DNA from: Taiwanofungus camphoratus
Taxonomy: Eukaryota > Basidiomycota > Agaricomycetes > Polyporales > Taiwanofungaceae
Reading direction: 5' to 3'
Length of the DNA: 64,000 bases
Assembly: GCA_003999685.1 (NCBI GenBank)
Contig: CP021220.1
Span: forward strand, 2,666,001 to 2,730,000
Under the pieces are notes generated by a model. The model saw only the letters and a list, made by a program, of their open reading frames with translations, was not told where the DNA came from and made no database searches. The translations under genes and the position numbers were made by a program. Numbering within the stretch: position 1 is the first letter of the stretch; every line of letters starts with the position of its first letter. Shown in pieces: positions 34,872-61,580 of this stretch.

Positions 34872-34954
34872 AGCCCTTTCATTCCGGACTACTAGTACAA
34901 CACGGGACAGTGAAACTGAAATGGGCAGCGGTTGCGTCGACTCACCCTGCCCCT

Positions 34955-40481: not shown

Positions 40482-40630
40482 TGTAGTTCCCCTGTTTCAG
40501 TTCCTATTTAGTTCCTATCCTCCTCATGTTCACTTCAGAGCCCATGCGCTTTAGTACACATTTTGGACTTGTAAGGATCACTTTGTGCAAGAATAGTTCA
40601 CCTCACTCTCTCCTATTTAGTCAGAGGTAG
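40482..40630 (+). repeat. Repeat F copy 1, left piece
   Basis: Begins TGTAGTTCCCCTG and matches 62413-62565. It is cut at GGTAG by element B and continues at 48370. Confidence 0.75.
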
Positions 40631-41676: not shown

Positions 41677-43254
41677 GTGCCCGAGATTTCTATCGCCGGT
41701 GGCAAGCTGGATCCATCCTCCAAAACGAGGCGGAGGTCGACCCTGACGTGCGCCGGGAAGGCTCATCGCTATCAAGCGGAGAACAATCGGGACGTACACC
41801 GACATTACACGAAGACTTCTAACTGGAGGGTCTGCTCAACGCAACCGTGCCCTCACCGCTACGACTCTGCACTCTACAGGGGAAGCGATTTCGAACCTTG
41901 TACTCCAACCAATCGCGCCCTCATCCAGGCCCGCTGGACAACCTTTGACGAAACCGACCCACCCTCCGACGAAGGCTCCAGCTCAGAACTAACCGATCCT
42001 GACATTGAACGGACAGAACGACAAATGGAAACTGAAGGGACAGGAAAAACATCCCCTTCCACTCCGGAAACACCCCGTGGCTTGAGCTCTTTCCGATCAG
42101 GAATAGGGGAATCAGGGCCACCGCCTGACGATGGGCTGGGGGAGGAAGGCCCCCCCGAGGGAGGACCACCTTATGACGAGAGTGGAGGACCCCCAGGAGG
42201 ACCACCTGGTGGAGGAGGACCACCTGGCGGAGGAGGAACACCTGGCGGGGGAGTGCCCGGTGGAGGAGGACTACCCGGTAGAGGAGGACCACCTGGGGGA
42301 GGAGGACCCCCTGGGGGAGGACCTCCTGGAGGGGGGCAGCCGCCTGGAGGAACACCCCTCCCACAGGGAGCTGCACGGGTACCGGACCGAAAAGAGCCAG
42401 AAATTACTAAGTTCTCTGGAAAGCGAGAGGATGCCCGACACTTCCTCATCCAATTTGCCCGAAGATTTGACACCGAGCGATGGGCCTCTGCTTCCGAACG
42501 AGAAAAGGTCGGCAATTTCCTTGGCCACCTCGAAGGCCATGCTGGTGCCTGGGCCGATACTCTCACCGAAAGGGCACTCGAACCCCACCCCCTCATCCGA
42601 GGGGTGAGCCGGGGGTACGGCACTTTCAGGAATGTCGCTCTCGAGTTCATCAAAAGGTTCGGGGTAATAGAGGAGGAGGTCTCTGCAGCCATCGAACTAC
42701 GGAACTTGGTCTACACCTACGACAAACCCATTGCCGATTTCAACGAGGAATTCGACCGACTGGCCCGCAGGGCAGAAATCACCGAAGAAAGTGCCCTTAT
42801 GGCCTGGTACCGAGAAAAACTACCCAGCACCATGCGAGTCCGAATCATGGAACGAGATGTAGCCCCCACAACCCTAGAAGGATGGAAGGAAGCTGCTGCC
42901 CAACGGGACCGGGCCTATCGAAACAACAAGGCCATCGATGCCGCTCAAAGAACTTCGAAAACCCCTCCGCGAGTCGCAGCAAGGGCATTTGACAGTGGGA
43001 AGCCAGACCATCAGCGCTTGCAAGACCGAAGGACGGGCTCCTGCTACAAATGCCACAATAAGGGGCACCTGGCCAAAGACTGCCCGGAGCGAACCTCGGG
43101 TCGGGGAACAGGACCCCCAAACCGAAGGGCCAACATGAAAGATGAAAACGAGGCGGATGATGAAGCCTCTGAGCAGGAGGAGCAGGGGCAAGAAACGAAA
43201 GGAGTAAGATTCCCCCACTTCTCTCAGCACCACGACTTTGTGGATTTTCTGTAA
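41677..43254 (+). CDS. Gag of element B
   Basis: A 525-residue open frame. It has an acidic Ser/Thr-rich first part and a Pro/Gly-rich tandem tract (about residues 170-230). A capsid-type core follows (ITKFSGKREDARHFLIQFAR, FNEEFDRLARRAEITEESAL), then a zinc knuckle CYKCHNKGHLAKDC (about 453-466) and an acidic tail. Gag forms the particle and binds the element's RNA. Pol follows after 12 nt in another frame, so expression probably needs the kind of recoding or reinitiation known in this family. Confidence 0.88.
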   Translation: MPEISIAGGKLDPSSKTRRRSTLTCAGKAHRYQAENNRDVHRHYTKTSNWRVCSTQPCPHRYDSALYRGSDFEPCTPTNRALIQARWTTFDETDPPSDEGSSSELTDPDIERTERQMETEGTGKTSPSTPETPRGLSSFRSGIGESGPPPDDGLGEEGPPEGGPPYDESGGPPGGPPGGGGPPGGGGTPGGGVPGGGGLPGRGGPPGGGGPPGGGPPGGGQPPGGTPLPQGAARVPDRKEPEITKFSGKREDARHFLIQFARRFDTERWASASEREKVGNFLGHLEGHAGAWADTLTERALEPHPLIRGVSRGYGTFRNVALEFIKRFGVIEEEVSAAIELRNLVYTYDKPIADFNEEFDRLARRAEITEESALMAWYREKLPSTMRVRIMERDVAPTTLEGWKEAAAQRDRAYRNNKAIDAAQRTSKTPPRVAARAFDSGKPDHQRLQDRRTGSCYKCHNKGHLAKDCPERTSGRGTGPPNRRANMKDENEADDEASEQEEQGQETKGVRFPHFSQHHDFVDFL

Positions 43255-43265
43255 GGCGACCCGAC

Positions 43266-46200
43266 GTGACGCACGAGTCGCCTAAGCTCTCTGTACGAAA
43301 TGTAATTACCGGAACGCGCAAGCGCAATACACTTTATCTACCGGGCTACATCGTCGTAGGAGAGAAAGCCGTCGCTGCATGCCCCCTATTGGATAGTGGG
43401 GCTGACGCCAACCTAATTCACCCCGACTTTGTAAGGAAGTGGGGACTCCCCACTCGACCGCTTCCCAGGACAGTAACCTCAACCACCATTGACGGCTCTA
43501 CAAACAAAGGGGGACCGATTACCCACAGAGTCGAAGGGAGCATACGATTAGAAGGGAATGACATCCCAACCAACTTTTATGTCTCAAACATTGGAACGCT
43601 CGATGTAGTACTCGGCAACCCCTGGCTCGCACAAGTCAACCCACGCATCGACTGGGTAGAAGGAACACTCGAGATTGACCAAGCTCGACTCACAGAATGG
43701 CAAGGATACTATGCCTGGATCATGAGCCAACCCACGACAGACGGAATTCCCCTGTGTCGAGCTTCCATTCATGAAGACGATGAGGAGCTTTCGGACATAA
43801 TGTGTGCTTACACACAAGGAGAAGGGGTTCTGGGGATCTTCCAACAGAAAGGGCAGCCGCTCGTACGTGAAGACGGGCTACTGCAGGCCCTAAAGCCCAC
43901 ACAACTAGGGCTCAATCGACTAACACGCCTCCCTGACTCCCCACATGTGGTATGGGATGCCCCAGAGCTCACGGAATTGGTGATCCCCAAGGACCCACCC
44001 CCATCCGTAGAAGACCTTGTCCCCGAATACCTGTGGGACTATAAACGGCTGTTCGAAAAGGAGGCTGCCAACCGGTTCCCAGAATCCAAGCCCTGGGACC
44101 ATGCCATCGAATTAAGGCCAGACTTTGTCCCCAGGAAATGCGCCGTAATTCCTTTGTCTCCCAATGAACAGGCAGCGATGGACAAATTTTTGGAAGAAAA
44201 CCTGGCCAAGGGCTATCTCCGAGAATCGAACTCACCAATGGCGTCACCAGCCTTTTTTGTCAAAAAGAAGGATGGTACCTTGCGCCCATGCCAGGACTAC
44301 CGATACCTGAACAAGGGCACGATCAAAGATGCCTACCCCTTACCCCTCATAGGAGAGCTAATCGACAGGCTCCAAAGGGCCACTGTGTTCACTAAATTAG
44401 ACCTCCGAAACGGGTACAACAACGTCCGGATCAGAGAGGGCGATCAATGGAAAGGAGCATTCATGGTCAAACATAGGAATCAGGACAAGATCGTCGAACC
44501 CACTGTCATGTTCTTTGGGATGTGCAACTCGCCGGCCACGTTTCAGCGAATGATGAATGACGCGTTCCAGGACATGCTGGCCGAGGGGTGGATCGCGATC
44601 TATATGGACGACATCCTCATTTTCTCCGACAATATGGAAGCCCACCGAGAACGAACCAGACGCGTCCTACAACGGCTGCAGGAATGGGATCTATTTGTCA
44701 AGCCAGAGAAATGCGCGTTCGATGTCGTCGAAGTTGACTTCTTGGGAATGACCATCTCACCTGGACAGGTGCACATGGACAAGGACAAACTGGCAGGAAT
44801 CGCAGATTGGCCCATTCCTACTAGGGTCAAGGATGTGGAACGATTCATGGGTCTCGCCAACTACTACCGACGCTTCATCCACAACTTCTCCCACATCGCT
44901 CACCCCTTGAATGTCATCAAGAAGAAACGCGCGGAGTGGAACTGGACCAAAGCCTGCCAGGAGGCCTTCGACGAGCTCAAACGGTGTTTCCAGAGCATGC
45001 CTATCCTTCGCATGCCCGACCCGTCCAAACCATTCACCATTGAGGCCGACGCCTCTCTGGTAGCCACTGGTGCAGTGCTGCAACAACTTGATGAAGAAGG
45101 GCGGCTACACCCTATAGCTTTCCTCTCGAAGAGCCTGAAAGAAGCGGAGCGGAATTATCAAGTATATGACAGAGAGCTGCTGGCCATTGTCCGAGCACTC
45201 GAGGAATGGCGCCACCACCTTGAAGGAAGTGGACATCCGGTCACGGTGATCACCGACCACAAGAACCTCACCTATTTCCGAGAAGCACAACGACTCAACC
45301 GACGCCAGGCCCGATGGCAGTTATTCCTGTCGCAATTTGACCTGCAACTATTAAACAAGAAAGGCAGTCGACTCATAGTCGCCGATGCACTCTCCCGGCG
45401 ACCTGACCACCCAGGAGGGAAACATGACAACGAAGATGTCATCCTGTTACCGACAGACCTCTTTGTCAACGCCACCAACACTGCAATCATCGAAAAGATA
45501 CGTGAATGTCGTACCCGTGACAGGATGGTCATCGAGACGATTGACGCTTTAAAACGGGGGAAGGTACCGCCATTCAAGGGCACAGGCTTTGCGCACACAA
45601 AGCTGGCAGACTGGGACATTCTGGAGGGACTAATTTTATACAAAAACAGAGTTTACGTACCCCCTGATGATGATCTGCGCCGAGAAGTCATTCAACTCTG
45701 TCATGACACACCAGCAATGGCACACCCAGGGGCACAAGGTACAATGGCCATCGCCCGAAGGGACTGGTTCTGGCATGGAATGTCTTCATTCATCGAGAAA
45801 TATGTTGAGGGGTGCGCCAAATGCCAGGAGAGCAAGATCAACACACACCCAACGAAACCCCCCCTGATGGCCATCCCCACAGAGCCGAACTCAAGGCCAT
45901 TCTCGCACATATCAGTAGACTTCATCACTGACCTACCAGAGTCACAGGGCTTCAATGCACTCATGGTAGTGGTTGACAGAGAACTCACCAAGGGCATCGT
46001 GCTCATACCCTGCACCAAGAACATAGACGCGGTAGGGACGGCAGAGGCCCTACACCTCAATGTATACAGGCGATATGGCCTACCTGACCGGATGATATCT
46101 GACCGAGGACCACAGTTCGCAGCGGCTGCATTTCGAGAATGGTGTAAGCTGACAGGAGTCAAGGCGGCAATGTCCACTGCCTACCACCCCCAATCAGATG

Positions 46201-47384
46201 GGAGTACAGAACGGGTCAACCAGGAACTGGAGGCGGCCTGGAGAATCCTATGCGCAAATGACCCCCACACCTGGGTCAAACACATCCCCGAGTTCGAATT
46301 CGCACACAACCAGGTGCCGCATGCTGGAAGGAAGGAATCGCCATTCAAGCTCACCATGGGGTACGACCCGAAGGCCATCGGATCCCCACGACCCTCCGAC
46401 AAATACCCCACGCTCCAAGACCGCCTGACCCGGATCTCCGAATCCCGCAAAGAGGCTCTTGCAGCGCAAGAGCTAGCCCAGAAGCTGATGGAGGAACGAA
46501 CCCCTTTTCCCTGGAAACCTTTCCAGGAAGGCGACAAGGTTTGGCTAGAAGCCACGAACCTCCGGCTAAGGACAATAAGTCGGAAATTTGACCCAAAGCG
46601 GCTTGGACCCTTCAAGATCACGGAAGTCAAGGGGCCACTGACGTACAAGCTACAGCTCCCGAGAACCTGGAAGATTCACCCGGTGTTCCATGCATCGCTG
46701 CTCACCCCATACAGGGAGACGGCGGAACACGGACCCAACTTTCTGAAACCACCACCTGATCTGGTCGAGGGGGAAGAAGAGTACGAAGTCGAGGCCCTCC
46801 GCGGGCATCGTGCCCGACGTGGGAAATGGGAGTTTCTCATCAAATGGAAGGGATGGCCGGTCTCTGCCAGCACCTGGCAGAAGGAAGATGATCTACGGCA
46901 TTCCCCTGACCTGCTGAGGCGTTATAAGAAGGCAAACCACCTAGGCATCAACCCAGTCGACAACCGTTCAACTGCCCTGCAAGGAGTCGTTCCGCAGCAC
47001 TTCAAAGCCACCTCCCACCATGTCCCATCGAACCAACGCCGCCCGAGCCCGCCTTGCCGCCTCCATCCTCACCGCAGGGAATGCCCGCACACTAAATCCC
47101 TTTCTTCGGGGACCGCAGAACCTCCCCAACTTCGCCGAGGGGATTGTCGTCCCCCTATCTCGCCAAGCAACATCTGGCCTCGCCGCCGACTTTCTGACCC
47201 CCGCCGACCGCCTCGGATGGGTGCTGGCCAACGAACGACTACGCCCGGCGGTGGACACCGCCCTCGTTGTCTGGCCCGATCTTGCGGCCCAGGTTGCCAT
47301 TTTTCGACATCAGGCCGAGGTCGTCTTACACCTCGATCAGGTGATAAGGGGGTACAGAGGGGAGAGGGAGAAGGGAGAGCATGA
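43266..47384 (+). CDS. Pol of element B
   Basis: 1372 residues. Domains in order: aspartic protease with DSGAD at 43-47; reverse transcriptase with YMDD at about 446-449; RNase H with its first Asp (EADAS) near 595; integrase with an HHCC zinc region from His 813 (HDTPAMAHPGAQGT to CAKCQ) and a DD-E core (VDFITDLPES, SDRGPQFAA, TERVNQELE); and a chromodomain at about 1172-1225 (EYEVEALRGHRARRGKWEFL). The chromodomain places it among chromovirus-type Gypsy elements, whose integrases favour particular chromatin. The last 150 residues are low-complexity and overlap ORF3 in another frame. Confidence 0.93.
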   Translation: MTHESPKLSVRNVITGTRKRNTLYLPGYIVVGEKAVAACPLLDSGADANLIHPDFVRKWGLPTRPLPRTVTSTTIDGSTNKGGPITHRVEGSIRLEGNDIPTNFYVSNIGTLDVVLGNPWLAQVNPRIDWVEGTLEIDQARLTEWQGYYAWIMSQPTTDGIPLCRASIHEDDEELSDIMCAYTQGEGVLGIFQQKGQPLVREDGLLQALKPTQLGLNRLTRLPDSPHVVWDAPELTELVIPKDPPPSVEDLVPEYLWDYKRLFEKEAANRFPESKPWDHAIELRPDFVPRKCAVIPLSPNEQAAMDKFLEENLAKGYLRESNSPMASPAFFVKKKDGTLRPCQDYRYLNKGTIKDAYPLPLIGELIDRLQRATVFTKLDLRNGYNNVRIREGDQWKGAFMVKHRNQDKIVEPTVMFFGMCNSPATFQRMMNDAFQDMLAEGWIAIYMDDILIFSDNMEAHRERTRRVLQRLQEWDLFVKPEKCAFDVVEVDFLGMTISPGQVHMDKDKLAGIADWPIPTRVKDVERFMGLANYYRRFIHNFSHIAHPLNVIKKKRAEWNWTKACQEAFDELKRCFQSMPILRMPDPSKPFTIEADASLVATGAVLQQLDEEGRLHPIAFLSKSLKEAERNYQVYDRELLAIVRALEEWRHHLEGSGHPVTVITDHKNLTYFREAQRLNRRQARWQLFLSQFDLQLLNKKGSRLIVADALSRRPDHPGGKHDNEDVILLPTDLFVNATNTAIIEKIRECRTRDRMVIETIDALKRGKVPPFKGTGFAHTKLADWDILEGLILYKNRVYVPPDDDLRREVIQLCHDTPAMAHPGAQGTMAIARRDWFWHGMSSFIEKYVEGCAKCQESKINTHPTKPPLMAIPTEPNSRPFSHISVDFITDLPESQGFNALMVVVDRELTKGIVLIPCTKNIDAVGTAEALHLNVYRRYGLPDRMISDRGPQFAAAAFREWCKLTGVKAAMSTAYHPQSDGSTERVNQELEAAWRILCANDPHTWVKHIPEFEFAHNQVPHAGRKESPFKLTMGYDPKAIGSPRPSDKYPTLQDRLTRISESRKEALAAQELAQKLMEERTPFPWKPFQEGDKVWLEATNLRLRTISRKFDPKRLGPFKITEVKGPLTYKLQLPRTWKIHPVFHASLLTPYRETAEHGPNFLKPPPDLVEGEEEYEVEALRGHRARRGKWEFLIKWKGWPVSASTWQKEDDLRHSPDLLRRYKKANHLGINPVDNRSTALQGVVPQHFKATSHHVPSNQRRPSPPCRLHPHRRECPHTKSLSSGTAEPPQLRRGDCRPPISPSNIWPRRRLSDPRRPPRMGAGQRTTTPGGGHRPRCLARSCGPGCHFSTSGRGRLTPRSGDKGVQRGEGEGRA

Positions 47385-47826
47385 CGAAGCCAAATGGTGG
47401 GCCAGCCCCATCCGGGAAATTGGTATATCGTACTGGCAGGCCTGTAACGCTACGCGCTCCCATCTCAATTTCCTCCTTCGCACCGACGTCGTCTCCGCCC
47501 TCGAGCATCTCCTACCACCCTCCTCCGTCATCACGCGCCCAGCCCCCTCCACGCAGGACGAATGGACAGTTTGTCTCCACCCCGAGTGCCGCCCCCTGGA
47601 CCGATGGGCTGGGGCCTGTGAGTTCTGCATGGGCCTCGATCACGTTGCTGCTGATTGCATCCACCGGCCACGACTGGGGGAGCCGGCTGTTGAGCCCGTC
47701 GTCCCGCCTCGCTGTCTGGATTGTTTCGCTGACGATCACGACACCGACCAATGCCCCAAGGCTGGGGCCGCCTGGTCGGAAATCAGTGGGTCGAAGCAGC
47801 CTGACGAGGAAGCTACCAGGTCATGA
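47020..47826 (+). CDS. ORF3 of element B: zinc-knuckle protein
   Basis: A 268-residue frame, +1 relative to pol and overlapping its end by 365 nt. A helical region (about residues 60-170, including RLRPAVDTALVVWPDL) is followed by two knuckles, CEFCMGLDHVAADC and CLDCFADDHDTDQC. The core clearly matches ORF3 of element D (DLRPEIDTRLLAWPDL). Function unknown. Confidence 0.78.
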   Translation: MSHRTNAARARLAASILTAGNARTLNPFLRGPQNLPNFAEGIVVPLSRQATSGLAADFLTPADRLGWVLANERLRPAVDTALVVWPDLAAQVAIFRHQAEVVLHLDQVIRGYRGEREKGEHDEAKWWASPIREIGISYWQACNATRSHLNFLLRTDVVSALEHLLPPSSVITRPAPSTQDEWTVCLHPECRPLDRWAGACEFCMGLDHVAADCIHRPRLGEPAVEPVVPPRCLDCFADDHDTDQCPKAGAAWSEISGSKQPDEEATRS

Positions 47827-47867
47827 GGGTAGGTGTCGGGGCGACACCTGAGAGGAGACGGGGGTAG

Positions 47868-48369
47868 TGTTACTGTCGGGTAGGACTAGAGACGTGTTCG
47901 TTTTTTCTTTCCCTCTGTTTGTCACACCATGGACGCGCGGCATCCCTTCCACACCTTACTTACCCAGATTGACTGACGGGCCGACCGTCCCCGCTTACGC
48001 CATGGTAGTTATGTACTTTCGGGCCGCTGACTCCTCTCACCTTATGCGGTCTCTGGGGGGCTGCTAGTATACCTGGGGGTTGGCGGTGGCAGTATAAGAA
48101 GGGGGTCCCACTGTTGGAGGTTCCCTTAGTCGTATTCTCTTCGTTCATCCTTCCTAAAGTGTACTACGCATTAGTACCAATACACGCTAGTCTTTCTCAC
48201 GTCCCTTTGCACCGCAAGAAGCCCGTGAAAGACTATCGCGACTACATAGGGCTTGTAGTTGAAGACCACCGAGGACTGTGACTCGTCGTCACCGTCGTTC
48301 CTCTTCGACCCTTCGCTGCACACCGCTCCAAGCTTCTGCAGCATTATCAGGGTGAACCCCCCGGTAACA
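47868..48369 (+). repeat. 3' LTR of element B
   Basis: 502 bp, same sequence as the 5' LTR by eye. Confidence 0.93.
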
Positions 48370-48765
48370 GGTAGTTTACCATGTACGAGAGAGACCCCTC
48401 AGTGCACGCTTCTCCCTTTGGAATACAAGTTCTCCTGTAGCTCCAATCTCAGAAAAGTGCCGTGAGTACAACCTTAGGAACAGTCCTAAGCCCCTAAAGT
48501 CTCCACTCTAGCTCCGTTTCAGTATCTTTGAACTACGTCTACACTTGCAATATATCTACAAACTACATCTACGCTCCTCGAACTGTGCACCACGATCCAC
48601 GAAGTCGACGTGACTTTGCACTCTTCAGTACATCCTATAGCACCTATCTGGTGGGCCTCTGCCTTAGTTATACCCAAAAGGCTCACATTGCATCATCCCT
48701 ATGTCCCACGATAGCACTATGACTCTCCTATAGTTCCCATTTCAGGTCATAGTACATCCCCCTAT
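48370..48765 (+). repeat. Repeat F copy 1, right piece
   Basis: Starts with the GGTAG duplication and then matches 62560-62950. Ends where the 5' LTR of element E begins. Confidence 0.75.
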
Positions 48766-49319
48766 TGATACAATTTCTTTCATCGCATATCTTATCGGTC
48801 GGACCTCGGATCGGTCCTGTGACCTTTTGCTTCTAGGACGGGCCTCAGGTAGGCCCAGCTTCTTCACGCAGCATCTTGACTCATCGCTGCTTACGGTACG
48901 GCCCCCGGACAGGCCCCGGTTACTCATGGACACTGACTCATATCGGGCCCTGGTTACACATTCTGTCTTACGCTTACTGATTGCTAATACGGCCCGATGA
49001 CTCATATTTCCTTACTTACGCTTACTCATGCTGATTCTTAGACCATGTGCCATGGTCCATGCGCAGAGTAGAATACGTATATAAGGCCGTGTACTTTGTA
49101 GGTCGGACCTTAAGTTCGATCTGGTTACCAAGTAGCTAGTTACCACTAGCAATCTTATACTTGTATCTTGCGACCTCTTGCTTCGTACCTGAGTACTTGC
49201 TCGACTCTATCAACTTCGCCCAGGAGGACATACACAGTGTCCATAAAGCCTCGCTACTATCGCTAGTAGTCAGGTCCTCACGTTCAAGGCTTTCCGGTCG
49301 TTGATACCAGTTTGTATCA
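48766..49319 (+). repeat. 5' LTR of element E
   Basis: 554 bp, TGATACAATTTC to TTTGTATCA, with TATATAA at 49078-49084 and AAGTTCGATCT at 49112-49122. The latter pairs with AGATCAAACTT just after the LTR (49322-49332) at 10 of 11 bases. Confidence 0.9.
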
Positions 49320-51594
49320 AAAGATCAAACTTACGCTAAGTCGCCCCTAGTCTTATCTAGTAGGGCTAACCATTAGACACCACGTCTACCATCGAGACAG
49401 TCGACCCCACCGCTTGGGGATTGCCGACTCAAGTAAATGACGCGCCGCTTCTGTACAATCGTCTTCGTTGGACTTTCGTTGACCAGAACCTCGATCCGAT
49501 CTACCCGAACTCTCCACTAGCGTGGGCAGGGACAATTTCAAATCGATGAGCACAGGAGAAATTAGCCTCCTACTTCAGACGTAACCCTCCGCCAGACAGA
49601 AGAGACCCAGCTGGTTTCTTTCCCGTGTCGATACCTTCGACACCGTTGATAGCCACTCCGACCACTCCCATGTTCCTGTCACTTCCTTCCACACCCATAA
49701 CCCCTACTACCCCTACCACGATGGCTACTATCGCAACAATGACCAGGGCGGAGCTTGAAGCGCTCATAGCGCACCTTTCAGCGCAACAGCATCAGGGGAG
49801 TCGACCCCTTAAGCTCGACATTCCTGCACCAGAGCCGTTCACCGGGCAAGGAGAAGATCTGGAGCGTTTCCTCCAGCGGGTGGAGCATTACCTCACTGCC
49901 ACCAACAATCAAGGGTTAAGCGATGATGCAAAGATCGCTTACACAGTCGCTCTCATGAAAGGAGGGCAGGACGCACGTATCTGGTGCGATACGTTTTACG
50001 AACGGGCCGTGGGAGGGCATGCTCCCTACGCTAGCTGGGACATATTCAAGGCGAGCTTGCGACTCGCGTTCCCCGAGCACGAAGGAGTTCAGAGGGCTCA
50101 TCAAGTGCTAATGGAGTTGCCAGCCAAGCAACTAAACAAGAAGACCAGGGTCAGTACAAAGATGTATGTGGAGAGGTTCCGACTCCTGGCAGAGAAGGCC
50201 AAGTTAAAGGACGCTGTTGTGGGCCTCCAAGGCCAACGCACCGAGAACGATTACCCCACGCTGAGGGCAATCTTCATCAAAGGTCTGGACCGCCAGATCT
50301 ACACAACACTCGCAGGCCACACCAATACGGAACGACCCAACTCCATGGAAAAATGGTACGCAGATGTCCTTCATCTCGACACCGTCTACAGAGGGATTGA
50401 CCAAACCCTCTCCACTACCACTGACGTCGACTATGGCGAACCCATGGAGGTGGACGCACTTGTTACCCCGCGTCCCACGCCGTTCACCAAGAAGTGGGAG
50501 GACGGATGCAGCCTCAGCGAGAAGGAAAGGAAGTACCACATGGACAATCGTCTGTGCTTCTACTGCCACAAGGGAGGACACGCGGTGTGCAAGTGTCTGA
50601 AGAAGACGGCCAAGACAGGCCAAAGGAATACCTCGAAGGAACCCGAGGCGCGATCCCCCATAGATTTCCGCTCGTACATCAAGACGCTCTCATTGGATGA
50701 GAAGAGGGCGATGTTCGAGGAGTTAGGAACGGAGGATTTTTAAAGGGGCAGGGTGAGCCGACGCAACCACTGCCCATATTCATTTCACTGTCCCGTGTTG
50801 TACTTGTAGTCCGGAATGACAGAGCTCTTCACATTCCGATTACTGTGGGATGAAAAGCCGTTGAAGCCCGCACCTTCATTGATAGTGGCGCATCAGGAAT
50901 ATTCGTGCATCCACGATTTGTTAAGGAACACAAGTTACGGACAGAGGCGCTACCATGCCCCATACCGGTGTTCAACGTGGACGGCACTGCCAACAAGCAA
51001 GCGCTCATCCACAAGTGAGCCTTGCTGTCGTACAAAATCGGGAACGAGCCCTGGTTTGTCAAAGCATACGTGGCCAGCATAGGAAACGAAGACATCATCT
51101 TCGGACACACCTGGCTCAAACTCGAGAACCCCAGTGTCGACTGGAAGGGAGGTCGTGTGGAACTGAAGCACCGCATGACCTTGCAGGAATCTCGAGAGTG
51201 GAAAAAAGGGATCATCACGCAATGAGTAGCGCGACTGGAGCTGAAGAAGCTAGCTGAACGAGAACAGGAAGAAGCCCTGGATCCCGTGCTAGACTATGAG
51301 GTAGACTGGTCAGCACCCCCTTGTCCACAGGTAGCGGCATTCCTTGCCGAACGAAACGGACGCCTCAAGCAACAATGGCAGCCCACCATTGAGGAGGTAG
51401 AAGACGAAGGAGACTTCGAGGTGATCGACACCATGTCTCCTGTCTTACCAACGACAGAAATGTCTAGGCAGACCGCACGCTGCGACATCCCAGTCGCACC
51501 CCTGGTAGAAGAATCGGTCAATGATATCACATTGGATCAGGCGATGGAAACGATCGACGACGACGAACTGGTCATAGCGTTCATCGAAGGCGAC

Positions 51595-52165
51595 TGTTAC
51601 GGGGGGTCTGCGCCCGTAGGTGACTACCGTGACGGGGGGTCGTTGAGTAGTCAGGCGCGAAGTGTAAACGAGGAGTCAGCCTGGCTGACGACGAGTACAC
51701 GTCTAAGTCTTCAACCGCTAGCCCAACGGTCTCGAGAGAGTTGCGGGCTAAGTCACAGCCTAAGTCCTAGTGTAGTCACAAGGATATAGATGGTCTAAGG
51801 CGACCCGTTGAATAGACAAAGGTATAGAGGCCTAAGCCCAGTCGTAAAGTACAAATGGTAACGGCGGCACCACAGTACACAGTGTAACTAAGGAGGACAA
51901 GATTGGGGTGCTCCGCAGTGAGCCAACCCCTTAAGTACTATGGTGGGTTTAGGGCAAACCAGCCCTCACTCCCACGGGTACCAGCACCTAAGCGTCCATA
52001 AGTCAGAGGCCCGAGTGGCCCCTTCTGAGGAACAGTCCATAACCAGGCGGGTGACGGTCAGCCCGTCAGGAATAATGGTGATAATTGTAAGTGTACACGA
52101 CCCGCCAGTCCGGTATAGTGAAGAGAAATGAAAATGTATGTTCGCACCATTATCGCCTTGTAACA
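51595..52165 (-). repeat. 3' LTR of element D
   Basis: 571 bp, bounded by TGTTAC and GTAACA. Matches the other LTR throughout by eye. Confidence 0.93.
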
Positions 52166-52176
52166 TTACCCCCCTC

Positions 52177-52932
52177 TCAAGGACTCGTCGCCCCGACGAT
52201 CGAACCCTCAGCGTCTGACCCCACTTGTTCTGATTTGACCCTGGCTCGTGGTCGGAGGGTGTTGGACTGGTCGGAAAGGATATCGTCATCACTGGTATGC
52301 ATGCAGTCGTGGCTCCAATGTCCCATTTGTCGGCATCGTATGCAGAAGGGGGAGTTCCCCCCACTGGTCGAGCTAGGGGCACCACCAGTGATAGAGTTGG
52401 ATGGGCCCTCACTGACAGAAGGGGCCTGTGTTCTGGCCTGATGTCGTGGCGGTATCAGGTTGTCTATGACGCCCATTAAAGGGGAGCGCATGAGGACGGC
52501 GAGCAGGTTGCGGGCTGCTCGGCTTGCATCCATGTGGAGAGTGGCCAACTGCCACGTTGTCGGATTGTTGCCATTTGGCCCAAGGCCTGTTTGCCTTCGT
52601 TCGAGTGTGGCCAAGCTGCCAGCCTCTCGCGCGACAATGACCAGTGTCCGGTAAATGTTCGTCAACTCCCACAGGTCCGGCCAAGCCAGCAGCCGGGTGT
52701 CTATTTCTGGCCGTAGATCGGCATCCACCAGGGCCCATGCAGTGCGATGCGCAAGCCTCCACTGATCGTACGGATCGTCGGACGCCGCCAATGGGGGCAC
52801 TGTCTCCTGGATGTTTCGGTATGGGTGTGCACGTGTGTGCCTTGCTCGTACTCGGGGTGCGAGGTCTCGTACCGTTGCTGCGCTGTGGTTCAAGTAGACG
52901 GATAGCTGTCGGGGGTCTGTATGAGTGGACAT
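52177..52932 (-). CDS. ORF3 of element D: zinc-knuckle protein
   Basis: A 251-residue frame, +1 relative to the long frame upstream and overlapping it by 524 nt, the same relative frame as in element B. A helical core (about residues 55-155, with DLRPEIDTRLLAWPDL and LMRSPLMGVIDNLIPPRHQ) is followed by a Ser/Gly linker and one knuckle, CIRCRQMGHWSHDC, then an acidic tail. The core matches ORF3 of B, which argues against a chance frame. Confidence 0.78.
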   Translation of the reverse strand: MSTHTDPRQLSVYLNHSAATVRDLAPRVRARHTRAHPYRNIQETVPPLAASDDPYDQWRLAHRTAWALVDADLRPEIDTRLLAWPDLWELTNIYRTLVIVAREAGSLATLERRQTGLGPNGNNPTTWQLATLHMDASRAARNLLAVLMRSPLMGVIDNLIPPRHQARTQAPSVSEGPSNSITGGAPSSTSGGNSPFCIRCRQMGHWSHDCMHTSDDDILSDQSNTLRPRARVKSEQVGSDAEGSIVGATSP

Positions 52933-55900
52933 CGTAGTGCCGTGCCTCCGCTGAATGTCGGTTGTATGCAGCTCTGCAGATCCGGGTGTAGCGGGCGTTG
53001 ACCTGGGGCCTTGTAGGCAACCTGTTGACCTTCTTATATTCCTCCAGAAGGTCGGGCGAGTTCGTTAAGTCCGCCTCGGACTGCCATGTATTAGCCGAGT
53101 TCGGCCATCCAACCCATTTGATCAGGAACTGCCATTTCCCACGTTGGGCACGATGCCCGTGAATGGCTTCGACTTCGTATTCTTCATCGCCATCGACTAA
53201 TTCTGGGGGCGGCCTTGTGAAGTTTGGACCATGTTCCTTGGTTTCCCTGTATGGTGTCAACAGTGATGCATGGAATACTGGATGTATCTTCCATGCCCTT
53301 GGTAGCTGAAGCTTGTACGTTAGCGGTCCTAGGACTTCGGCTATCTTGAGTGGTCCCACTCGCTTTGGGGAAAACTTCCTCGGGGTCTTTAGGCGGAGGT
53401 TAGTTGCTTCTAGCCAAACCTGCGTCCCCTTCTCAAATGGCTGCCATGTGGTTCGAGCCCTTTCTGCCATCAACTGTGCAGCTAGATCCTGTGCTGCCAG
53501 TGCTTCCTTTCTGAACTCTCCGATGGCTAAGAGTCGGTCCTTGATTGATGGGTACCTTTCCGATGCCTTTGGTGATCCGATTGCCTTTGGATCATATCCC
53601 ATAATCAGCTTGAATGGTGATTCCCTTCTTCCAGCATGCGGCACCTGATTGTGTGCGAATTCAAATTCCGGGATAAACTTTGCCCAGTTATGAGGATTGT
53701 TGGCACACAGGATCCTCCATGCGGCTTCGAGTTCCTGATTGACACGCTCAGTGCTTCCATCAGACTGCGGATGGTAGGCAGTGCTCATGGCCGCTTTGAC
53801 ACCTGTCAGCTTGCACCACTCCCGGAACACCGTTGCTGCAAACTGTGGGCCTCGGTCCGATATGATTCTGTCAGGTAGCCCATATCGCCGGTAAACGTTC
53901 TGATGGAGTGCCTCGGCTGTTCCTACTGCATCGATGGTCTTGTTGCAAGGAACCAGGACTATCCCTTTGGACAGTTCTCGGTCCACCACTACCATTAGTG
54001 CGTCAGATCCACGCGATTCTGGCAGGTCTGTGATGAAGTCGACTGAGATGTGTGAGAACGGCCTGGAGTTCGGTTCCGTTGGGATGGGTTGCATTGGTGG
54101 TCGTGTTGGGTGCGTGTTGACCTTATTCTCCTGGCATTTGGCGCAGCCTTTCACGTATTTTTCGATAAACGTGGCCATGCCATCCCAGAACCAGTCCCTT
54201 CTGGCAATGGCAAACGTTCCCTGTGCTCCTGGATGGGCCATAGCTGGGGTGTCATGGCAAAGTCGAATGACTTCTCTGCGCAAGTCATCACTAGGGGGTA
54301 CGTAGATTCGATTTTTGTACAGAATCAATCCATCCTGCACCTCCCAATCGGCCAATGTTGTGTGCGCAAATCCAGTGCCCTTGAATGGTGGTACTTTCCC
54401 CCGTTTTAAAGCGTCAATCGTCTCGATGACCATGCTGTCACGACTTCGGTGTTGCCGGATGCGCTCGATGAGGTCAACATTAACTGCCTTTGCAAACAGT
54501 GTTTCTGGTAAGAGGACAATGTCCTCATTGTCCCTCTCACCCCCTGGGTGTCCTGGTCTACGTGATAGGGCGTCCGCCACTACGAGTCGTTTACCCTTTC
54601 GATTCTCCAGTAGTAAGTCAAACTGTGATAGCAGCAGTTGCCATCGTGCCTGGCATCGTGTTAGCCGTTGGGCTTCTCTGAAGTATGTCAGGTTCTTGTG
54701 GTCCGTTATAACCGTGACCGGGTGCTTTGCGCCCTCCAGGTGGTGACGCCATTCCTCAAGTGCTCGTACGATTGCCAGTAGTTCTCTATCATAGATCTGA
54801 TAGTTCCGTTCTGCTTCCTTCAGCGATTTTGAAAGGAATGCCACCGGGTGAAGTTTCCCATCAGGGCCCTCCTGTTGCAGTACTGCACCTGTTGCAACCA
54901 GTGAGGCATCGGCCTCGATTACAAACGGTTTCTCAGGGTCGGGCATGGTGAGTACTGGGGCTTCACAAAAACGGCGTTTAAGTGTCTCGAAGGCTGCCTG
55001 GCACTTGTTCGACCAGTTCCAAGCTACCCCCTTTTTCTTAAGTGCATTCAGGGGGTGGGCGATGTCCGAGAATCCGCGTATAAACCGTCGATAGTAATTG
55101 GCAAGGCCCAGGAATCGTTCCACATCCTTGACTTTGGTCGGTATGGGCCATTCATCGATGCCCCGCAGCTTGCCAGTGTCCATATGGATGTGGCCCGGTG
55201 TGATGGTCATTCCCAGAAACTCAACTTCTTGTACATCAAAGGCACACTTTTCCGGTTTCACAAAGAGGTCCATCTCCTGCAAGCGTTGCAGTACCCGGCG
55301 TGTCCGTTCTCGGTGGATGGTAGCATCATCGGAGTAGATCAGGATGTCGTCCATATAAATGGCTAACCATCCTTCCGCAAGCATGTCTTGAAACCCATCA
55401 TTCATAAGCCGCTGGAAGGTGGCCGGGGCATTGCACATGCCGTAGAACATTACCGTTGGTTCAACTAGCTTCTTGGTTCCGTGGTGATTCACCATGAACG
55501 CTCCCTTCCACTGGTCGCCCTCCCTGATGCGTACATTGTTGTAGCCATTTCGGAGGTCCAGCTTCGTGAATATGGTTGCCTTTTGCAGGTTGTCGATGAG
55601 CTCTCCAATGAGTGGGAGTGGGTATGCATCTTTTACCGTGCTGTTGTTGAGGTATCGGTAATCCTGACAGGCCCTGAGTGTACCATCCTTTTTTGCCACA
55701 AAAAATGCTGGGGAGGCCATGGGTGACTTTGAGTCCCGTAGATATCCTTTCGCCAGGTTCTCGTCAAGGAACTTGTCCATCTCTGCTTGTTCAGCCAGGG
55801 ATAATGCAATTACCCCGCACTTCCTAGGTACAAAGTTAGGCTTTGTCTCCACAGCGTGGTCCCATGGTCTCGAACCAGGGAATCGAGCAGCGGCCGCCTT

Positions 55901-57391
55901 TTCAAAGCGGTCCCTGTAGTCGAGTAAGTACTCAGGCACCAGGTCTTCAATCTGTGGCCCCTCCTCAGGGGGTGTCAGTGGTGCGCTTGTCTGCCTGGCG
56001 GTGGCTATGAACCGTTTTGAGCCCCTTACATGGCTGTTCCGATCTAACGATGGTTGAGACTTCTTGGGTGGCTGCAGCAGGCCCATTTCATCGAATAGGG
56101 GTTCCGGTTGATCGTTGAACATGCCTAAGACCCCTTCTCCCCTTGTATAAGCACATAGGATGGTTTCTAGCTCATCATCGTCCTCGTGTGCAGAGGCTCG
56201 GCACAATGGGATGCCGTCCGTGGTAGGCTGGTCCATGATCCAAGCATAGTATCCCTGCCATTCCTTAATCCTGTCTGGGTCAACCGTGAGGGTCCCTTTC
56301 GGCCAATCGATCTGCGGGTTGACTTGAATCAACCAAGGGTTGCCCAGCACTACTTCGAGGTCCCCGATGTCTGATACGTAGAAGTTTGTGGGTATGTCAT
56401 ACCCTTCAAGCCGTATGCTCCCTTCAACTCGATGGGTAATCGGTCCACCCCTGTTGGGGGTCCCATCAATGGTCGTACTTCGTACCTTCCGAGGTAGCGG
56501 TCGTGTGGGCAGTCCCCATCGTTCCACAAGGTCAGGGTGTATGAGGTTGGCATCGGCTCCGCTATCGATTAGTGGTCTCACAGCGATGGCCTTTTTCCCG
56601 GCGACAACATAACCTTCTACATACAGAGTGGTTCCTTTCCGATATCCTGTGATTGTGGCCCCCATTGAGATGGTCGGGTCCTTACTGGTCTTTGGCTTGT
56701 CCAAGTTTCTTTGCACAGGTTTCCCTGTGCCTTCAGCCATTGATTCCCCTCCTGGGGCATCAGTGAAGTGTTTAAAATGAGGGAACCGTTTCTGTTCAAT
56801 GGACTCTACGGTGGACGTTCCTAAGGATTCCTCCGTTTCTTCACTGCTCCAGTAGTCTGCTGGTGGGACCGGATATGGCTGGGTTTCCTCCAAGGCGAAG
56901 TCATCTGAGTTTGACGAGTGGTGCAGTTCCAGTTCCCTGTCTCTCCCGGCATCATTGGAAGGTTGTGGAAGTCTGGGTTCGCTTTTGTGTGGATTATCGT
57001 GTTCATCGTCAGCTTCCCCTAGGGCCACGTCTCTGTGTCCTTCCTTTCTGATTTTCCTGGGCTCCGGGCATGCCTTGACCAAGTGTCCTGGCTTCCTGCA
57101 TCGGTAGCAGCTCCTCTTCTTCCAGTGATGAGGTGTCAGAGCTGTATTGGGGTGGTTGTGTCGGTGTCCTTGCCTGGAGCCTGTGCCCCTCTGCCCCTGT
57201 TCGAGGGCTTCAGTGGAGGGCTGAGAAAGTCTGAGGTCATTGTCGCTTGGGGTAAGCGGTCCATCCCAGGGGATCCTTAGGGCTGCTTCTTCTGTTGTTT
57301 CTGGTCGGGGTATGTGGTCTTCCTCCCTTCCTTCCTTCAATTTTCTTCGCCAGGTGATAGCTCTCCAGACTATCGCCAGGAACTTCTCCAT
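52409..57391 (-). CDS. Gag-Pro-Pol of element D
   Basis: A 1660-residue frame. A short Gag remnant or variant with knuckle CYRCRKPGHLVKAC (from residue 95) leads into the protease (DSGAD at 276-280). Reverse transcriptase (YMDD at about 679-682), RNase H, integrase (HDTPAMAHPGAQGT zinc region, VDFITDLPES core) and a chromodomain (EYEVEAIHGHRAQRGKWQFL) follow. Pol is very similar to that of element B. The tail beyond the chromodomain overlaps ORF3 in another frame and is low-complexity. Confidence 0.92.
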   Translation of the reverse strand: MEKFLAIVWRAITWRRKLKEGREEDHIPRPETTEEAALRIPWDGPLTPSDNDLRLSQPSTEALEQGQRGTGSRQGHRHNHPNTALTPHHWKKRSCYRCRKPGHLVKACPEPRKIRKEGHRDVALGEADDEHDNPHKSEPRLPQPSNDAGRDRELELHHSSNSDDFALEETQPYPVPPADYWSSEETEESLGTSTVESIEQKRFPHFKHFTDAPGGESMAEGTGKPVQRNLDKPKTSKDPTISMGATITGYRKGTTLYVEGYVVAGKKAIAVRPLIDSGADANLIHPDLVERWGLPTRPLPRKVRSTTIDGTPNRGGPITHRVEGSIRLEGYDIPTNFYVSDIGDLEVVLGNPWLIQVNPQIDWPKGTLTVDPDRIKEWQGYYAWIMDQPTTDGIPLCRASAHEDDDELETILCAYTRGEGVLGMFNDQPEPLFDEMGLLQPPKKSQPSLDRNSHVRGSKRFIATARQTSAPLTPPEEGPQIEDLVPEYLLDYRDRFEKAAAARFPGSRPWDHAVETKPNFVPRKCGVIALSLAEQAEMDKFLDENLAKGYLRDSKSPMASPAFFVAKKDGTLRACQDYRYLNNSTVKDAYPLPLIGELIDNLQKATIFTKLDLRNGYNNVRIREGDQWKGAFMVNHHGTKKLVEPTVMFYGMCNAPATFQRLMNDGFQDMLAEGWLAIYMDDILIYSDDATIHRERTRRVLQRLQEMDLFVKPEKCAFDVQEVEFLGMTITPGHIHMDTGKLRGIDEWPIPTKVKDVERFLGLANYYRRFIRGFSDIAHPLNALKKKGVAWNWSNKCQAAFETLKRRFCEAPVLTMPDPEKPFVIEADASLVATGAVLQQEGPDGKLHPVAFLSKSLKEAERNYQIYDRELLAIVRALEEWRHHLEGAKHPVTVITDHKNLTYFREAQRLTRCQARWQLLLSQFDLLLENRKGKRLVVADALSRRPGHPGGERDNEDIVLLPETLFAKAVNVDLIERIRQHRSRDSMVIETIDALKRGKVPPFKGTGFAHTTLADWEVQDGLILYKNRIYVPPSDDLRREVIRLCHDTPAMAHPGAQGTFAIARRDWFWDGMATFIEKYVKGCAKCQENKVNTHPTRPPMQPIPTEPNSRPFSHISVDFITDLPESRGSDALMVVVDRELSKGIVLVPCNKTIDAVGTAEALHQNVYRRYGLPDRIISDRGPQFAATVFREWCKLTGVKAAMSTAYHPQSDGSTERVNQELEAAWRILCANNPHNWAKFIPEFEFAHNQVPHAGRRESPFKLIMGYDPKAIGSPKASERYPSIKDRLLAIGEFRKEALAAQDLAAQLMAERARTTWQPFEKGTQVWLEATNLRLKTPRKFSPKRVGPLKIAEVLGPLTYKLQLPRAWKIHPVFHASLLTPYRETKEHGPNFTRPPPELVDGDEEYEVEAIHGHRAQRGKWQFLIKWVGWPNSANTWQSEADLTNSPDLLEEYKKVNRLPTRPQVNARYTRICRAAYNRHSAEARHYDVHSYRPPTAIRLLEPQRSNGTRPRTPSTSKAHTCTPIPKHPGDSAPIGGVRRSVRSVEACASHCMGPGGCRSTARNRHPAAGLAGPVGVDEHLPDTGHCRARGWQLGHTRTKANRPWAKWQQSDNVAVGHSPHGCKPSSPQPARRPHALPFNGRHRQPDTATTSGQNTGPFCQ

Positions 57392-57594
57392 CTTTCCGGT
57401 GTTTCTTATCCTTCAACTCAACACTGATGGTACGCACTTGTAGTCAAGTGATCCTCCTGCCAGTCCCTTCCAACGGGGACACTGGTCTTACCCAATCCTT
57501 CCTATGAGGACGTTGGTGAGGGTCCGGTTTCTTCCGCTTGTTCGCGTTCTAATTCGCTATCCTGAGATAGAGTTTGTAGGGAATCTTGTCCTAA

Positions 57595-58165
57595 TGTTAC
57601 GGGGGGTCTGCGCCCGTAGGTGACTACCGTGACGGGGGGTCGTTGAGTAGTCAGGCGCGAAGTGTAAACGAGGAGTCAGCCTGGCTGACGACGAGTACAC
57701 GTCTAAGTCTTCAACCGCTAGCCCAACGGTCTCGAGAGAGTTGCGGGCTAAGTCACAGCCTAAGTCCTAGTGTAGTCACAAGGATATAGATGGTCTAAGG
57801 CGACCCGTTGAATAGACAAAGGTATAGAGGCCTAAGCCCAGTCGTAAAGTACAAATGGTAACGGCGGCACCACAGTACACAGTGTAACTAAGGAGGACAA
57901 GATTGGGGTGCTCCGCAGTGAGCCAACCCCTTAAGTACTATGGTGGGTTTAGGGCAAACCAGCCCTCACTCCCACGGGTACCAGCACCTAAGCGTCCATA
58001 AGTCAGAGGCCCGAGTGGCCCCTTCTGAGGAACAGTCCATAACCAGGCGGGTGACGGTCAGCCCGTCAGGAATAATGGTGATAATTGTAAGTGTACACGA
58101 CCCGCCAGTCCGGTATAGTGAAGAGAAATGAAAATGTATGTTCGCACCATTATCGCCTTGTAACA
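57595..58165 (-). repeat. 5' LTR of element D
   Basis: 571 bp. The forward stretch 57894-57904 (AGGACAAGATT), which is the likely transcript start on the minus strand, is the exact complement of 57582-57592 just inside the LTR. Confidence 0.93.
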
Positions 58166-61100
58166 GCGACGATCGGATCACAACGTACGGGCGAGACTCA
58201 TACCCGGTGTACCGGGACACCCTGCTTACGGAAACGAAGTACCCTCTTAACGGAACTTATCATCGTCTCGAAAATGGTCTTATCTGGCAGGTCAAGCACG
58301 ACATCGGCCGACTCATCACGTCCACGGAATTCGCTATCAAGGAACACGCCAAGAAAGAGGAGAAGCCGGTCATGGAACTCGTCCCCGAGTATCTACACGA
58401 TCTCCTCCTGGTGTTCGACAAAGCCAAGGCAGCGAGACTTCCCCAACATTCGGAGTTTGACCACGAGATCAATCTCAAGCCAGATTTCAAGGACTTCAAG
58501 CAGACGACATATTCTCTTAACCAGGACCAATGAGCGGAACTGGACAAGTTCCTCAAAGAGAATATAGAGAAGGGGTACATCCGACCGTCCAAATCACCAC
58601 TCGCAAGTCCGTTCTTCTTTGTGGATAAGAAGGACGGCGGATACCGACCATGCCAGGACTACAGGGAACTTGACGAGGGAACGATCAAAGACAGATACCC
58701 TCTCCCCCTCGTAACGGAACTTCTGGAATGCCTCAATAACGCCACGATCTTCACAAAGATGGACCTTCGTCAGGGATACAACAACCTTTGCATCAAGGAA
58801 GGTGACAAATGGAAAGTGGCTTTCGGTGTTCCAGCAGCTGGGGAAGGACCTCCCTCGTTCTACAAACCCCTGGTAATGTTCTTCGAGATGTGTAACTCAC
58901 TGGCAACATTCCAACGGATGATGAACACGGTCTTCACAGACATGTTCAAGGAAGGATGGTTGGCAATCTATATGGATGACATCCTTATCTACTCGACAGA
59001 CCCCAAGGAGCATAAGAAGTGAACACGGCGAGTTATCGAACAACTTAGAGATACCGATCTGTATCTCAAACTGGAGAAATGCAAATTCGACGTGCAAGAG
59101 GTCGAATTCTTAGGCATGATCATCAGACCCGGACAACTCGCCATGGACCCAGTCAAGGTGGCTGGCATCAAGGACTGGCTGGTACCTAAGAACCTCAGGG
59201 AGGTTCGGTCATTCATCGGATTTGGGAACTTCTACCGCCAGTTCATACACAGCTTCTTGCATCTGGCCCAGCCCCTGGTCTCACTTACGCAAAAGGTCGT
59301 CAAATGGCACTGGGACGATGAACAGCAGGAAGCTTTCGAGGCATTGAAGAAAGCCTTCCTGGAACAACCGGTTTTACAGATGCCTGACCCGGAGAAGCTG
59401 TTCGTGCTGGAAACAGATGCATCGAAGTTTGCCACAGGCACTGTCCTCAGGCAAAAGGACGACAACGGCGATTGGCATCCATGCGGTTATATTTCCCAGA
59501 GCATGACGCCAGCGGAACGAAATTATGACGTCTATGACCGAGAACTCATGGGCGTCATGAGGGGACTCAATGAATGGAGTCACCTTCTCATCGGTAGCCC
59601 ATATCCAGTCACAATTTATAGCGACCACAAGAATCTGATGTACTGAAAAACAGCACGGAACCTTAATCGAAGGCAAGCGCGATGGGCTCTTCGCTTGTCC
59701 GAATTCGATTATAGGTTAATTCATGTACTGGGCACGCAAATGGTGCAAAGCGACGCGCTCTCCTGATGCCCCGACCATGATGACGGTTCATCAGACAACC
59801 AGGATGTAACCATCCTACCAGATAAGGTATGGGCAGCAGCAATTGACACGAGTCTCAGGGCTTCCATCGTGGAAGCATGCGTAAATGACTCGGTGTATAC
59901 AGAAGGGATGCGCAATGCACGAAACGGCTCAAATGACCACTGGACAATTCGAGACGGAGACCTCCTCTATGATAATTGGGTGTATATTCCACTGGATGAG
60001 GATCTACGACAACAAACGGTCTCAAATTATCACGACCTCCCCTCCGCCGGCCACCCTGGAATTCAGAAGACTCTCTCGTCTATCCGACAAGACTACTGGT
60101 GGCCTGGAATGGCTGACTTCATCACGCGATACGTCAAAGGTTGTGGCACTTGCCAGCAAATGAAAGTTAACACGCACCCCACCCGACCGGCCCTACTCCC
60201 GATCAAATCCACGCAGCACGCCACCCCGTTCAGTACATTCTGCTGCGATTTCATTATGGATTTGCCAACCTCAGAGGGCTACGATTCAATTTTGGTCGTT
60301 GTGGACCACGACCTTATGAAGGGGGTAATTTTCATTCCTTGCAACAAAACGATTGACGCATCAGGAACAGCCGAGGCATTATATCGTGAAGTTTACAAGT
60401 GGTTTGGTCTTCCGGACAAGATCATTAGCGATTGAGGACCACAATTTGCATCAAAGGTATTTCAGGAGCTCTGCCGTATGACCGGAGTCAAGTCGGCTAT
60501 GAGCACGGCGTTCCACCCTCAAACGGACGGAGAGACGGAATGAGTCAACCAAGAACTGGAGATCTACCTGCGATGCTTCACGAGCAACAACCCGGACAAT
60601 TGGTCGTCGCTGCTGGGCTCAGCACAGTTCGCTCACAACTCGCGTGAGCATTCGACAATTAAGGCATCACCCTTCAAGGTCATGATGGGCTATGAACCTC
60701 GAGGGATTCCCGTCGTACACCCCGGATCAGACACACCAGACGCTGCTTATCGACTGCAGAACTTGCAGAAGATTCGGGAAGACGCACACTCAGCAATGGA
60801 GCTAGCACAGGCGGTGTTAGCAAGACGCGTGAAACCCAAAGGAATGGGTTTCCGCAAGGGACAAAAGGTATGGCTAGACTCACGGAATCTAAAGCTGCCA
60901 TACCCGATGAGGAAGCTGGCTCCCAAGCACGAGGGCCCCTTCAAAATCACAGACGTTCTAGGACCGGTGTCTTACAAGCTAAAACTCCTGACGACATGGC
61001 GAGTGCACCCCGTTTTCCACGCCGCACTTCTTTCGCCATACACCGAGACGGACACCCATGGTCCCAATTACACGGAACCACCGCCGGAGCTTATCAGTGG

Positions 61101-61283
61101 CGAAGATAACTACGAAGTCGAAGCTCTGGTCGGACATCGTGAGAATCGCCGAAGGAATTGCTGAGAATATCGAGTCAGGTGGAAAGGTTACTCATCTGCC
61201 GATGACTCATGGGAACTGGAAGAGAACTTAGCTGGTACTGCGGACGAGCTGCTGGATGCATATAAGCAGCGCAAGAATCTACG

Positions 61284-61580
61284 ATGAGTGAAATCAGTCG
61301 CATTTTCACCCCACTCATCATCTGCATGTCTCAGTCAAACGGTCCTTCATCCTCGTTCACTCGCTACGGTCCATGCTACCTCTGCGGTAGCACTTCTCAC
61401 TCGCACAGCACGTGCCCCGACTACACATGTCTCCATTGTAGTCGCCCATCGCCTGGGCACTTTACATGCGAATGCCCCACCATCAACTACGCATTCACAT
61501 ACAACCCGGTACCACCATATCATCCAGAGTGGTTCCTGCATGTCGTTAAACTGCAAGGGAACGACCGTGCACGTCATTAA
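61284..61580 (+). CDS. Short ORF3 of element E: double zinc knuckle
   Basis: A 98-residue frame whose ATG overlaps the preceding stop as ATGA (61284-61287). It holds knuckles CYLCGSTSHSHSTC and CLHCSRPSPGHFTCEC, matching ORF3 of G. It lacks the long helical part seen in B, D and G, so it is a reduced version. Confidence 0.65.
   Translation: MSEISRIFTPLIICMSQSNGPSSSFTRYGPCYLCGSTSHSHSTCPDYTCLHCSRPSPGHFTCECPTINYAFTYNPVPPYHPEWFLHVVKLQGNDRARH

Follow-up and report, generated by a model that had tools for sequence, protein, structure and literature searches.

A zinc-knuckle third gene behind the chromodomain in Ty3/Gypsy elements of Taiwanofungus camphoratus

We analyzed a 64,000-nucleotide stretch of the genome of the polypore Taiwanofungus camphoratus (GenBank assembly GCA_003999685.1, contig CP021220.1, positions 2,666,001 to 2,730,000 of the forward strand), hereafter the window, in which four families of Ty3/Gypsy long terminal repeat (LTR) retrotransposons, designated B, D, E and G, carry an additional open reading frame (ORF), ORF3, behind the chromodomain. 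The usual description of an LTR retrotransposon is gag plus pol. In these chromodomain-bearing elements, ORF3 is a genuine third gene kept by purifying selection. It starts at its own ATG just past the chromodomain and, in B and D, ends near the 3' LTR; what was found is an extra internal ORF under purifying selection, which is one hallmark of an accessory gene of an LTR retrotransposon. As to its product, we lean by a modest degree toward a separate cistron encoding an accessory nucleic-acid-binding protein that would act on the RNA or cDNA of the element.

Purifying selection on ORF3

The original prediction had placed four frames with CCHC zinc knuckles in the window, and all four were confirmed. 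B ORF3 (47020..47826, + strand, ATG at 47020) has 268 codons, with an N-terminal helical domain followed by two CCHC knuckles (CX2CX4HX4C) close to the C terminus, and stops 36 nucleotides (nt) before the 3' LTR. Its homolog in D (52177..52932, - strand, ATG at 52932) has 251 codons and one CCHC knuckle and stops 11 nt before the 3' LTR. The window copy of G ORF3 (33351..34397, - strand, ATG at 34397) has 348 codons and a tandem pair of knuckles, CX2CX4HX4C and CX2CX6HX4C. E ORF3 consists of tandem knuckles only, in 84 codons counted from an invariant ATG (61326..61580, + strand) or 98 codons from the start first assigned to it (61284).

Copies were searched for throughout the host genome (33.2 Mb, 15 contigs), with the count for each family tallied from the listed matches as a lower bound. 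B ORF3 has at least 51 near-full-length copies (at least 78% identity), 29 of them without a stop, and among the matches listed every copy at 99-100% identity is open (24/24). For D and G, at least 42 copies each were found (at least 87% and at least 86% identity, respectively), with 29 open in either family, in G across the query length, while E ORF3 gave at least 78 matches (at least 49% identity), of which 64 are open. Where copies had closed, the stops among the matches listed were TGA in 35/40 cases in B and in 22/22 in D. Such near-exclusive TGA stops in decayed copies suggest C-to-T decay at CGA codons, through methylation or a process like repeat-induced point mutation (RIP).

Because the B and D copies in the window are young, with LTR pairs that are 100% identical (B, + strand, 507 bases, 5' LTR at 40626..41132 and 3' LTR at 47863..48369; D, - strand, 571 bases, 5' LTR at 57595..58165 and 3' LTR at 51595..52165), ratios of nonsynonymous to synonymous divergence (dN/dS, Nei-Gojobori method) were calculated on diverged subfamilies. 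B ORF3 compared with four diverged relatives gave a dN/dS of 0.18-0.21 at a dS of 1.1-1.4, and the relatives among themselves gave 0.16-0.20. D ORF3 compared with five diverged relatives gave 0.12-0.26 at a dS of 1.3-2.6, where dS is near saturation, and its relatives among themselves gave 0.17-0.40 at a dS of 0.26-0.71. The B and D ORF3 regions read in the other two frames yielded 0.57-2.23. For the integrase-chromodomain of B and D, each compared with three relatives, dN/dS was 0.06-0.12; this range omits L077, which has a broken pol frame, was misaligned and gave 0.29-0.41, and L075, in which the upstream part is rearranged, and neither entered the codon-phase test described below. The B relative L071 was excluded from the nucleotide tests on account of an LTR-like insert between its chromodomain and ORF3; the ORF3 of this copy is still open.

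Thirty G loci were fetched, each with only 1.5 kb of upstream sequence, and the 29 that remained after exclusion of the window copy (L039) were used for dN/dS. Over codons 1-300, G ORF3 gave 0.08, compared with 1.58 and 2.57 when read in the two shifted frames, and the integrase-chromodomain gave medians of 0.06-0.10 (406 pairs); G ORF3 is as constrained as the integrase-chromodomain in the same copies. Along the frame, dN/dS was 0.01 in the helical core, 0.02 over the tandem knuckles and up to 0.57 in the proline-rich tail. Comparisons of G with two diverged relatives gave 0.12-0.13 in three cases, the fourth being saturated, and the two relatives, both decayed, gave 0.32 against each other. 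In E, a hand-picked set of 13 of the at least 78 copies gave a dN/dS of 0.38 for ORF3, vs 0.94 and 0.84 in the other frames, and 0.17 for the chromodomain. The original prediction had proposed a selected role for ORF3, to be given up if dN/dS lay near 1 and most frames were closed; the opposite was found, with dN/dS of 0.08-0.38 and most of the listed copies open.

The G ORF3 in the window is shortened, at 348 codons compared with 469 in 12/30 and 461 in 5/30 of the fetched loci, and the proline-rich tail of the family lies in another frame downstream (32988-33350). In this copy, an internal deletion has also joined the protease in frame to the chromodomain (fusion frame 34440..35099, - strand, with 45 nt between its pol stop and the ATG of ORF3), from which it had been claimed that G lost its enzymes and kept ORF3. 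That holds for the window copy but not for the family: a genome-wide search for the 35-base protease-chromodomain junction, tolerating up to 3 mismatches, matched one site only, and the integrase-chromodomain is alignable in all 29 other fetched loci within the 1.5 kb covered upstream. As the enzyme loss is one unique deletion and other copies keep the integrase-chromodomain, the retention of ORF3 there is no evidence of a special role. Bases common to both break sites, recognized by eye, would fit a template switch or a microhomology deletion.

Overlap with pol and route of translation

The B pol frame (43173..47384, + strand), which encodes protease, reverse transcriptase (RT), ribonuclease H (RNase H), integrase and chromodomain, overlaps ORF3 with its last ~120 codons, and the pol stop lies 362 nt (B) and 521 nt (D) downstream of the ORF3 ATG. 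The fast codon phase, which is pol position 3 in the integrase-chromodomain, becomes ORF3 position 3 from the ORF3 ATG onward, even where pol stays open. In the overlap of B and its relative L069, changes per site were 0.16, 0.14 and 0.41 at ORF3 positions 1, 2 and 3. This switch of phase was seen in all six comparisons, with and without CpG sites, and a chi-square test over the whole of ORF3 without CpG sites gave p-values of 6e-10 or lower in 4/4 comparisons tested. The pol tail that overlaps ORF3 in B and D showed no constraint in the pol frame, and since the fast codon phase moves to ORF3 at its ATG, this tail is incidental. Dual coding in the B and D overlap is ruled out by the codon-phase and shifted-frame tests. 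The +1 register that the original prediction noted as common to B and D is present, but the pol tail is unconstrained and the pol frames of B and D relatives end anywhere from before ORF3 to well inside it, some through decay, so the common register gives no indication that translation is coupled.

Among the 29 G loci that remain when L045, a locus without a readable pol end, is set aside, the distance from the first base of the pol stop to the ORF3 ATG is 44-48 nt in 28; in the remaining one, in which the usual stop is changed, it is 7 nt. ORF3 lies in the same frame as pol in 13/29 and in another frame in 16/29. The second part of E pol (58132..61287, + strand), which ends in the chromodomain, is divided into several broken frames in the window copy. 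From the E pol stop to the ORF3 ATG, there are 39-44 nt in 13/13 copies, with the same frame as pol in 2/13 and another frame in 11/13. This varying register argues against a programmed frameshift or readthrough from pol as a general route in G and E. E ORF3 had been thought to start with an ATGA overlap, and the ATGA is indeed present in 12/13 copies, but it is in the ORF3 frame in only 9/13, whereas all 13 copies have a second ATG ~41 nt past the pol stop, at 61326 in the window; an ATGA stop-start is not the rule in E.

Given that G and E copies differ in register and that the B and D pol frames run deep into ORF3 before they stop, ORF3 would form its own translated cistron, with a subgenomic or spliced mRNA as the most likely template. 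Ordinary reinitiation is unlikely in B and D because pol ends 362-521 nt inside ORF3, and it is possible in G and E. A separate mRNA would be the simplest route common to the four families.

Two types of ORF3

The original prediction treated ORF3 as one gene across the four families, and the two pairwise matches on which it drew were both recovered. The B and D cores are 25% identical over 159 columns (BLASTP, single-comparison E-value 4e-12), and their profiles match with 96.8% probability over 192 columns (hhalign); the tandem knuckles of G and E are 39% identical over 61 columns (E-value 2e-14). A single ORF3 common to all four families is nevertheless ruled out, as comparisons of B/D with G ORF3, hhalign among them, found no similarity outside the generic knuckle. 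These comparisons indicate that ORF3 exists as two types, B/D and G/E, with only the generic knuckle in common. Because the knuckle pair is common to G and E and their integrase-chromodomains are 85% identical over 198 residues, E ORF3 is best read as a reduced, knuckle-only form in the G lineage. Between B and D, pol is 73% identical over 1300 columns, against the 25% for ORF3.

The Pfam family zf-CCHC matched G ORF3 above the cut-off, D below the cut-off and B not at all, and the knuckle, which in B and E was recognized by motif, is kept in the relatives of B, D and E. A helical bundle is predicted at residues 61-168 of B ORF3, the whole model having a predicted local distance difference test score (pLDDT) of 46.5, and fold comparison with this kind of low-confidence model gave only middling helical matches among the 50 listed. 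No transmembrane segment was found by hydropathy on a simple scale, as opposed to a dedicated predictor, with 19-residue maxima of 1.42 (B), 1.37 (D), 0.72 (G) and -0.01 (E). An envelope-type third ORF, such as that of errantiviruses and Athila, is rejected on this hydropathy result.

A protein-database search with B/D ORF3 returned three proteins, two from the host species and one near-identical to a host copy. Two B-type ORF3 copies have been deposited as host "hypothetical protein" (AcW1_010174 and AcV5_009884). Two further ORF3 searches of protein databases gave no match, an absence that says little, as the host's own G copies are also missing from that database. Repeat masking may hide genes of this kind: despite the many copies, only two named host proteins, both "hypothetical", came up in the search.

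An extra ORF in fungal Gypsy elements is already known. A figure legend of Novikova et al. 2010 (PMC2864245) labels an "additional ORF" in Gypsy elements, many of which are chromoviruses, found in a survey of fungi with the polypore Postia placenta among them; the accessible text of that paper does not mention a knuckle, a type or selection, and the comparison, made by label only, leaves room for this to be the same gene. As far as the accessible parts of the papers go, basidiomycete chromoviruses also have an accessory function in the form of a dUTPase (PMC2864245; cited in PMC2774666), which is an enzyme domain within Pol, unlike ORF3, which would be a separate cistron and has no enzyme match. 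A 2009 review, in its accessible part, states that one fungal chromovirus clade carries additional genes, citing the dUTPase paper (PMC2774666). No account of the ORF3 knuckles, the two types or the selection was found in the literature searched, which left out most subscription journals. That four families in a single fungus carry an accessory gene at the same position, and that this gene comes in two unrelated versions, suggests that the region between the chromodomain and the 3' LTR pays off repeatedly.

Possible roles of ORF3 and its neighbors

RNA binding, packaging and silencing evasion, the roles put forward originally, are all plausible candidates. We infer a nucleic-acid-binding role for the ORF3 product. 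In B, D and G, the N-terminal helical domain would oligomerize or dock on a protein of the element, and the C-terminal CCHC knuckles would grip element RNA or cDNA for packaging, chaperoning, export or delivery to chromatin. ORF3 would thereby form a second nucleocapsid-like module, reduced in E to the knuckle pair. It resembles retroviral and retrotransposon nucleocapsids in its CX2CX4HX4C spacing, with weak matches of the B/D knuckle to PDB entries of retroviral nucleocapsids (E-values 0.03-0.4), and differs from them in lying outside Gag, in not being basic, in having its own helical domain without Gag similarity and, in G and E, in having one knuckle of the form CX2CX6HX4C.

Several observations weigh against a separately translated nucleic-acid-binding protein. 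Typical nucleocapsids are basic, and in the ORF3 proteins lysine plus arginine vs aspartate plus glutamate come to 27/34 (B), 26/25 (D), 52/43 (G) and 5/4 (E). Apart from the B bundle, the structure predictions have low confidence, including the whole of the G model, and selection on E ORF3 is weaker (0.38). With regard to translation, the spacing of 39-48 nt between pol stop and ATG in nearly all G and E copies would also fit reinitiation, and no pairing of splice acceptor and branch site is conserved across all four sets; where a YAG was present in at least 90% of the copies in a set, branch-like sites accompanied it in 3/4 (D, the best case), 1/4 (B), 2/29 (G) and 2/12 (E).

An unlikely but serious alternative is that ORF3 is an anti-silencing or defense-suppressing protein, with knuckles whose target would be small RNAs, the RNA of the element or a silencing factor; the VANC proteins of plant VANDAL transposons have a comparable role. 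The contrast between 73% identity in pol and 25% in ORF3 (B/D) would fit fast change or module swapping, as would the two unrelated types at one position fit such a protein, and the TGA-rich decay of old copies means that the host may methylate these elements. However, the constraint on G ORF3, equal to that on integrase, is not the mark of an arms race, and no known suppressor was matched, in searches that included no library of such proteins.

The D family bears on a further possibility. The chromovirus pol order (protease-RT-RNase H-integrase-chromodomain) was found by Pfam in B and D pol, the chromodomains of E and G being recognized by eye and alignment. The first ORF of D, read from its ATG (52409..57391, - strand), begins with ~93 residues, one knuckle and a linker, after which protease to chromodomain follow. 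The B gag frame (41677..43254, + strand) encodes a Retrotrans_gag domain (2e-6) and its own knuckle; a Pfam scan found no Retrotrans_gag in the D first ORF, and the two proteins are similar only at the knuckle (42 columns). A 1667-codon D frame of identical length was present in 20/61 matches, and the same short start was seen by eye in 2/2 diverged relatives (L093 and L094). A capsid-type Gag thus appears to be lacking across the D family and not in one copy alone. B, E and G each have a Gag, and D may use the Gag of B in trans. According to the accessible part of PMC3735527, BARE2 of barley, a Gag-deficient parasite of BARE1, likewise lacks a usable Gag and multiplies alongside a relative in which Gag is intact, as D does beside B. 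BARE2 differs in having lost its start codon, whereas the D first ORF is without any capsid-type region and ORF3 is kept; trans packaging is demonstrated for BARE2 (PMC3735527) and a possibility for D.

It is improbable, in our judgment, that ORF3 serves as a second Gag, combining capsid and nucleocapsid in one small module for building or modifying particles, and that in D it replaces the missing capsid. Gag likewise has a helical domain with CCHC knuckles behind it, and the D first ORF has no capsid-type domain, but B, E and G already have a Gag, Pfam found no Gag domain family in B, D, G or E ORF3, and hhalign of ORF3 to the Gag of B and of E/G found similarity at the knuckle only. We consider it more doubtful still that basidiomycete chromoviruses gained a third gene at least twice as a second particle or packaging module, with the 3' gene of D replacing the capsid part of Gag; if true, D would be an LTR retrotransposon whose assembly function has left the 5' end for the 3' end. 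The long, short and capsid-less layouts, found together in one cultivable species, form a natural comparison for the role of ORF3.

There is little to recommend the proposal that ORF3 limits the copy number of its own family, as truncated Gag p22 does for yeast Ty1: a small, separately started knuckle protein could poison particles, but ORF3 has no similarity to the elements' own Gag outside the knuckle, and each family has dozens of copies. That the frames are accidental and open because the copies are young is rejected for B, D and G and disfavored for E, with hardly any probability left to it; the identical LTRs of B and D mean that an open frame there alone proves little, and the overlapping pol tails are such by-products, but dN/dS is far below 1 between subfamilies at dS >1, and the shifted-frame controls failed.

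Four published T. camphoratus genomes measure 32.9-33.6 Mb, and a burst-like Gypsy expansion was reported by their authors in the accessible text (PMC8865532). Elsewhere in the window, retroelement-like frames with protease- and RNase H-like stretches were recognized, by eye only, at 28396-31327 (+ strand). The E element has LTRs at 48763-49319 and 61853-62409 (+ strand) that are 96.8% identical, and the D element (51595-58165) sits inside it.

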